From Candidatus Poribacteria bacterium (GTDB lineage: Bacteria; Abyssobacteria; SURF-5): a stretch of 37,280 nt of DNA. Under the pieces are notes generated by a model that did not search any database, was not told the origin of the DNA, and saw only the letters and a list, made by a program, of their open reading frames with translations. Below are positions 29,538-30,239 of this stretch, in pieces. The stretch lies in the NCBI GenBank assembly GCA_016215705.1, contig JACRIR010000059.1:1-37280 (forward strand), read 5' to 3'. The position numbers were made by a program, and so were the translations under genes. The number at the start of each line of letters is the position of its first letter. Position 1 is the first letter of the stretch.

Positions 29538-30239
29538 ATGAATGAATCGAGCATGCTGGACAAGACGTTTAACATCATCATGAGACGCATGGTGCAAACA
29601 GGCCAGGCGCCTCACTACACGGAAATCGCCAAGGAGTTGGGCGTTTCCATGGTAGACGGCAAACAGGCGCTCCATGATCTCATCAACTCGGGAGTGCCCG
29701 GCTGGCTGTATCCGAAGACCGACCTCATCGTATCTATGGCGCCGTTCAATAATCTTCCCACCCAATACCGCATCACCATTGACGGTCAGCAGAAATGGTT
29801 CGGCCAGTGAGCGTTCGAATCGCTGGCGGTCTGCTGGCTATTCCCCGGAAAAACCGTTCGAATTGATGCGCCGTGTCTCGATTGCGGAGAACCCATCAGC
29901 GTCGAACTCAAGGACGGCGAAATCCTCAAGGCTGACCCTGACGGCATAATCGGGCACGTGTCCGTACCGTTCCTGAGTTGGATGCAAGACCCGGGCTTCG
30001 CCTGAAGCACCATGCTGTTCTTCCGGTCGGAAGAACACCTCAGGAATTGGGCCGACTTCGACCCGCAGACAGAGGCTGGAATTGTTCCCTTGCTCGACCT
30101 CGTGAAGTTGTTCTCCGCAGAATTTTTCCGGAGACGACTCGACCCCGACTATGTTTCGCACATGCAGGAATACGCAATGGGGTTTCTCGCAACGCTGAGA
30201 GAGATCGGCAAGACGGGTCCCTTCTGGCTGCCGGAATAG
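29538..30239 (+). CDS. merB: MerB-like organomercurial lyase family selenoprotein with two selenocysteines (in-frame TGA at 29808-29810 and 30003-30005)
   Basis: One continuous frame of 233 residues if both TGA codons are read as selenocysteine (U91, U156), ending at TAG 30237-30239. Residues about 20-52 form a helix-turn-helix-like N-domain (YTEIAKELGVS). MAPFNNLPTQYRI matches the MerB linker. GQ-U-AFESLAV aligns with the family WCALD block, placing U91 at catalytic Cys96, with Glu94 where the enzyme has Asp99. APCLDCGEPI matches the CPxCGEP block. FA-U-STMLFFRSEEHLRNW places U156 at catalytic Cys159; GKTGPFWLP ends the family. Each TGA is followed by a GGUC-loop hairpin. MerB cleaves C-Hg bonds using exactly these two cysteines. 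GAAGGGGG precedes the ATG. Neighbouring genes use TGA as a true stop, so recoding is local. A double-nonsense pseudogene is the alternative, but is unlikely. Confidence 0.88.
29817..29843 (+). promoter_or_regulatory. Predicted bacterial SECIS element 1
   Basis: Begins 7 nt after the TGA at 29808-29810. GAAU (29817-29820) pairs with AUUC (29840-29843); after one C/U mismatch, GCUGGC (29822-29827) pairs with GCUGGC (29833-29838) through two G-U wobbles, leaving the loop GGUCU (29828-29832). The loop matches that of the E. coli fdhF SECIS, and the first loop G is 18 nt past the TGA, within the range needed by SelB. Confidence 0.75.
30016..30037 (+). promoter_or_regulatory. Predicted bacterial SECIS element 2
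   Basis: A perfect 9-bp stem, UGUUCUUCC (30016-30024) with GGAAGAACA (30029-30037), closing the loop GGUC (30025-30028). The first loop G is 20 nt after the TGA at 30003-30005. The stem lies inside the conserved FFRSEEH codons, so it is coding and structural at once. This is the stronger of the two. Confidence 0.85.

Follow-up and report, generated by a model that had tools for sequence, protein, structure and literature searches.

A MerB-family protein of a Candidatus Poribacteria genome with selenocysteine predicted at both catalytic cysteine positions

In the organomercurial lyase MerB, either Cys96 or Cys159 binds the organomercurial, Asp99 protonates the leaving group, and external thiols afterwards strip Hg(II) (PMC4525700). 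MerB diversity was surveyed in 2021 with a screen for Cys96, Asp99, Cys159 and Cys117; the only variants described there are 99Ser and 117alt, and selenocysteine goes unmentioned in the main text (PMC8261052). A MerB-like protein that does contain selenocysteine (Sec) is SaoL (NF040728; Haft and Gwadz 2023, cited in PMC13188914). SaoL is presented as the MerB-like organometallic lyase of the multi-gene Sec-assisted organometallic (SAO) system, and is listed in PMC13188914 with one Sec, which lies in a CU motif. Metal-related proteins with two Sec residues have also been described, such as the metal-binding double selenoprotein MbdU (NF045648) and the putative mercuric reductase-like UxxU metal-binding protein (NF041115; both PMC13188914).

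In this work, we describe a gene in a stretch of 37,280 nucleotides from a Candidatus Poribacteria bacterium, which we call the window. Its protein shares the possession of two Sec residues with MbdU and NF041115 but belongs to a different family, and its Sec residues are 65 positions apart and lie at the catalytic ligand positions of MerB. The preliminary description of this DNA knew of no MerB with Sec at both sites. None was found in the open-licence literature, where the large double-Sec group is apparently undescribed and SaoL is apparently the sole described MerB-like selenoprotein; the claim has to be narrowed to two Sec residues, however, since the single-Sec SaoL was already known (PMC13188914).

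The features of the gene are collected in Table 1. Translation with TGA as Sec gives U91 and U156, and thus the single frame interrupted only by two TGAs that had been noted earlier is borne out. Residues 72-191 match the Pfam MerB model (PF03243) at 2.4e-22 and 79.7 bits, above the gathering cut-off of 27 bits. As references we used the R831b MerB structures 3F0P and 3F2G and the MerB2 structure 5C17. By position count in the alignment to 3f2g, residue 91 corresponds to Cys96 and residue 156 to Cys159, in agreement with the preliminary description, and in the alignment to the solved MerB chains Cys113 aligns with Cys117 and Glu94 with Asp99. The window protein therefore shares with MerB its sequence family, the catalytic positions, the aligned Cys117 and an acid at position 99, but differs in having Sec for both catalytic Cys, Glu for Asp99 and no mer operon. 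It scores far from the canonical MerB equivalogs (NF009710, 38.6 bits against a cut-off of 193; NF033555, 34.9 against 200). It is also related to SaoL as a MerB-like selenoprotein, and residues 13-136 weakly match the SaoL model. However, identity with SaoL was rejected (42.3 bits against the curated cut-off of 140), and the window protein differs from SaoL, as that protein is listed in PMC13188914, in having two Sec residues, no CU motif (the residues preceding them are Gln and Ala) and no conserved neighbourhood. An AlphaFold model built from two sequences was poor (mean pLDDT 48), so the fold assignment relies on homology.

Table 1. Features of the MerB-like selenoprotein gene, in window coordinates
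Feature	Position	Strand	Description
MerB-like selenoprotein gene (predicted)	29538..30239	+	233 codons, 2 in-frame UGA (Sec), TAG stop; translation, Pfam MerB, alignment, orthologues
UGA codon 91, predicted Sec at MerB Cys96 position	29808..29810	+	translation, alignment to MerB, homologue columns
Glu94 at MerB Asp99 position, putative proton donor	29817..29819	+	Glu in 30/30 clade-I sequences
Predicted SECIS hairpin for UGA 91	29822..29838	+	GCUGGC-GGUCU-GCUGGC, 6 bp, loop 17 nt past UGA
Cys113-x-x-Cys116; Cys113 at MerB Cys117 position	29874..29885	+	alignment to solved MerB chains
UGA codon 156, predicted Sec at MerB Cys159 position	30003..30005	+	translation, alignment to MerB, homologue columns
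Predicted SECIS hairpin for UGA 156	30016..30037	+	UGUUCUUCC-GGUC-GGAAGAACA, 9 bp, loop 19 nt past UGA

To place the gene within its family, the Pfam MerB model was searched in four draws, one of 386 relatives and three by phylum, with 396 genomes from the phylum of G084, 12 from that of G245 and 395 from that of the MAG described below, and column counts were made on an aligned set of 100 MerB homologues. This set contains 117 in-frame TGAs, 115 of which fall in the two catalytic columns (49 at Cys96 and 66 at Cys159). The other two, in the C-terminal tails of L093 and L094, are probably true stops read through by the script. Both TGAs are present in 47 loci, of which 30 form clade I and 17 clade II, and 19 loci have the TGA at the Cys159 position alone. 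With respect to positions 96, 99 and 159, clade I, which includes the window gene, is Sec/Glu/Sec (30 sequences), and clade II, which spans several phyla, is Sec/Asp/Sec (17 sequences). Cys/Asp/Sec occurs in 18 sequences, mainly those of clade III, and Cys/Glu/Sec in one. Another 30 have Cys in both catalytic columns and differ among themselves at 99; the remainder are a few oddities. Among these, L147 and L149 are clade-I copies in draft genomes that were scored Sec/Glu/Cys and look frameshifted between the two sites. Cys and Sec are thus exchanged among homologues at both catalytic positions. A separate observation concerns L129 (G1144:C171), in which a TGA stands at site 159 on a branch of 0.019 among near-identical Cys/Cys relatives; either a recent change or an error may account for it.

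Orthologues come from two other genomes of the same phylum (80% and 77% identical) and from a MAG chromosome that carries the label Deltaproteobacteria and, in the tree, the label Myxococcota (69% identical). All of them have the two TGAs at the same codons, and similarity among these loci is limited to the gene itself. In each of the three segments delimited by the TGAs, dN/dS is 0.05-0.23 wherever dS has not reached saturation, which indicates that all three are under selection at the protein level.

Both hairpins listed in Table 1 agree with the published model of bacterial SECIS elements in loop, stem, spacing and stability; the model specifies 3-9 nt for the loop, 4-16 bp for the stem and 16-37 nt for the spacing, with a G in the first two loop positions and an MFE of -7.5 or lower (PMC13188914). 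The 48-nt folds have energies of -10.9 (UGA 91) and -14.0 kcal/mol (UGA 156). Compared with shuffled sequences, neither stretch alone is strongly more stable (z of 0.31 and -1.57), and the case for SECIS elements therefore rests on conservation. Hairpins with a G-bearing loop at -5 kcal/mol or better follow UGA in 98% and 97% of cases at the two sites; the same criterion gives 18% and 30% at Cys sites. For the Cys159 site, the loop GGUC is found at an identical distance in 59 of 66 hairpins, six of the nine stem pairs are altered on both sides, and the covariation is 0.290 vs 0.153 in shuffles (0/500). Within clade I, codon conservation is 0.81 and 0.91 inside the two hairpins vs 0.43 elsewhere (p=2e-7). 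In particular, residue 99 in the numbering of the window protein is Cys, Arg, Ser or Gly in clade I, with a codon that is invariably NGC, which indicates that the RNA stem is kept rather than the amino acid. Note that the second hairpin partly codes for a conserved FRSEE motif, where constraints on protein and RNA overlap. In clade II, the hairpin past site 96 mostly has a CGUGC loop and lies further downstream.

The window genome (5.47 Mb, 270 contigs, 92% complete) contains the machinery for inserting Sec. It has selA (2.1e-145), selB above cut-off on the same contig as selA, selD above cut-off, and a tRNA-Sec with anticodon UCA (68 bits). Its SelD itself has an in-frame TGA near the N-terminus (SSGG-TGA-ACK), at a position that in SelD is usually Cys or Sec. 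Among 26 genomes tested, selA was detected in 25; the exception, G487, is fragmented and has a clade II copy. In G735, which has a Cys/Cys copy, the selA match is only weak and partial. Of the 26 long non-overlapping ORFs retained in the window, 15 end in TGA, which is therefore the normal stop for other window genes; no further readthrough gene in the window passed the same coding and hairpin filter. In one further genome, only about 1 kb separates a double-Sec MerB gene of clade II from a second selA copy (G586:C19:231507-232598 and 233546-233923; L079).

Two in-frame stop codons could also indicate a pseudogene, an assembly error or a TGA reassigned to an ordinary amino acid, and the apparent frameshifts of L147 and L149 might be taken as pointing in this direction. 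The probability of this is negligible: the same two codons are shared by 47 loci, all segments are under purifying selection, the SECIS elements are conserved, and TGA is a stop elsewhere in the window. Pseudogene, sequencing error and altered code were accordingly rejected. From the TGA columns, the conservation of the SECIS elements, the Cys/Sec exchange and the sister clade described below, these genes form a selenoprotein family. At the level of sequence comparison, it is thus shown that the window protein belongs to the MerB family, that both of its UGAs are predicted to be read as Sec, and that SECIS elements accompany them. The preliminary description had predicted Sec at both catalytic positions, and the orthologues, the homologue columns, the Sec machinery and the hairpins support this. 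Its expectations that homologues would have Cys or Sec in these two columns and that selA, selB, selC and selD would be found in the genome also held, the former with few exceptions among the 100 aligned homologues. The sequencing error that it had allowed for is excluded by the hairpins, by purifying selection and by the recurrence of both TGAs in independent orthologues.

In the tree, clade I (support 100/100) joins its nearest sister (99/90), a Cys/Glu/Cys clade, and then clade III (100/96); clade II (100/100) is placed apart. The well-supported branches require that Sec changed at least twice at site 96; two gains fit, and one gain followed by losses is also compatible. Clade II (L036, L038, L040, L069-L072, L082, L136, L139-L141, L144-L146, L148, L150) mostly has the motif AAUA.DA around site 96, with Asp retained at 99. 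Clade III (L033, L050-L057, L059, L060, L063, L067, L076), which is common in the phylum of G084, has Cys at 96 and Sec only at 159, with the motif NC.WDA / U.TM. Against each of the NCBIfam MerB models, representatives of clades II and III stay far under the cut-off. Within clade III, the two positions are both Cys in the nested members L061 and L066, and Ser and Trp in L064. One of the three members of the window's phylum has a classical Cys/Asp/Cys MerB (G001:C117, L031) besides both double-Sec types. A search of plasmids gave only distant classical MerB, the nearest at about 28% identity, and a search of phages gave none.

By analogy with MerB, the window protein likely cleaves a carbon-metal bond using two selenolates, with Glu94 as the acid. 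The full explanation that we favour, with a probability of roughly 0.7, is a double-Sec, SECIS-directed organometal lyase of the MerB type, whose chemistry, substrate and metal fate are proposed from this analogy. The ribosome would insert Sec at UGA 91 and UGA 156 to yield the full-length protein, each UGA being directed by its own SECIS hairpin together with the SelA, SelB, SelD and tRNA-Sec of the genome. The selenolates of Sec91 and Sec156, in place of Cys96 and Cys159, would capture the metal of the organometal; the most likely substrate is methylmercury or another soft-metal alkyl of this kind, present at very low concentration. Glu94 would then protonate the carbon leaving group, releasing an alkane, and thiols of the cell, selenide or a partner protein would take over the bound metal, possibly with the help of the Cys113-x-x-Cys116 pair.

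That pair, being conserved and additional, would also suit a redox enzyme, a peroxidase or reductase, working through a Sec91-Sec156 diselenide on an old MerB scaffold, and bacterial selenoproteins are often redox enzymes (PMC13188914). We consider this quite improbable, as the MerB acid position is still acidic, both Sec residues occupy metal-ligand positions and a thioredoxin-like motif is absent.

Several points count against the explanation that we favour. Asp99 is replaced by Glu; two selenolates could bind Hg(II) too tightly and slow turnover; no mer operon, mer genes or conserved neighbour were found near the window gene; and, among the limited number of candidates scored per genome, MerA exceeded its curated cut-off in just 2 of 26 clade-I genomes, with no bona fide MerA above it in the window genome. 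The Se-Hg bond is very strong, and a protein of this family might instead scavenge or chaperone a soft metal, Hg or another, stoichiometrically and without cleavage. This would suit a gene that stands alone and for which these candidates gave no MerA partner in most genomes. The change from Asp99 to Glu fits as well, since residue 99 of MerB affects metal specificity according to work cited in PMC8261052. Nevertheless, a pure binder would have no need of an acid at the proton-donor position, which is kept throughout clade I, and Asp is retained in the other double-Sec clade, so that we regard sequestration as distinctly unlikely.

The substrate of a lyase could also differ from the one that we favour, being some other organometal or organometalloid or an alkylated soft element, as proposed for SAO. 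The lack of mer genes nearby, the name of SaoL as an organometallic lyase and the separation of clade I from classical MerB in the tree speak for this; no neighbour, however, indicates As, Sn, Pb or another element, and we think it rather unlikely, if deserving of attention. A conserved operon was looked for twice across the loci and was not found, and no neighbour family recurred convincingly when 47 loci from clades I and II and from the Cys sister clade were compared.

For the family as a whole, we tentatively suggest, at somewhat less than even odds, that Sec arose at both ligands at least twice independently. The products would be a widespread group of diselenolate organometal lyases that act without a surrounding mer operon and, for the most part, without MerA; they might demethylate trace methylmercury and hand the metal on as Hg-Se.

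The MerB family thus gains two double-Sec clades and one single-Sec clade. Gene-prediction software and standard annotation would split or truncate these proteins, and surveys that demand Cys96, Asp99 and Cys159 would overlook these clades, so the capacity of bacteria to degrade organometals may be undercounted. The presence of Cys, one-Sec and two-Sec forms in one family offers a direct test of the role of selenium at a site that cleaves metal-carbon bonds, and the same family allows testing how cells handle a product held by two selenolates.
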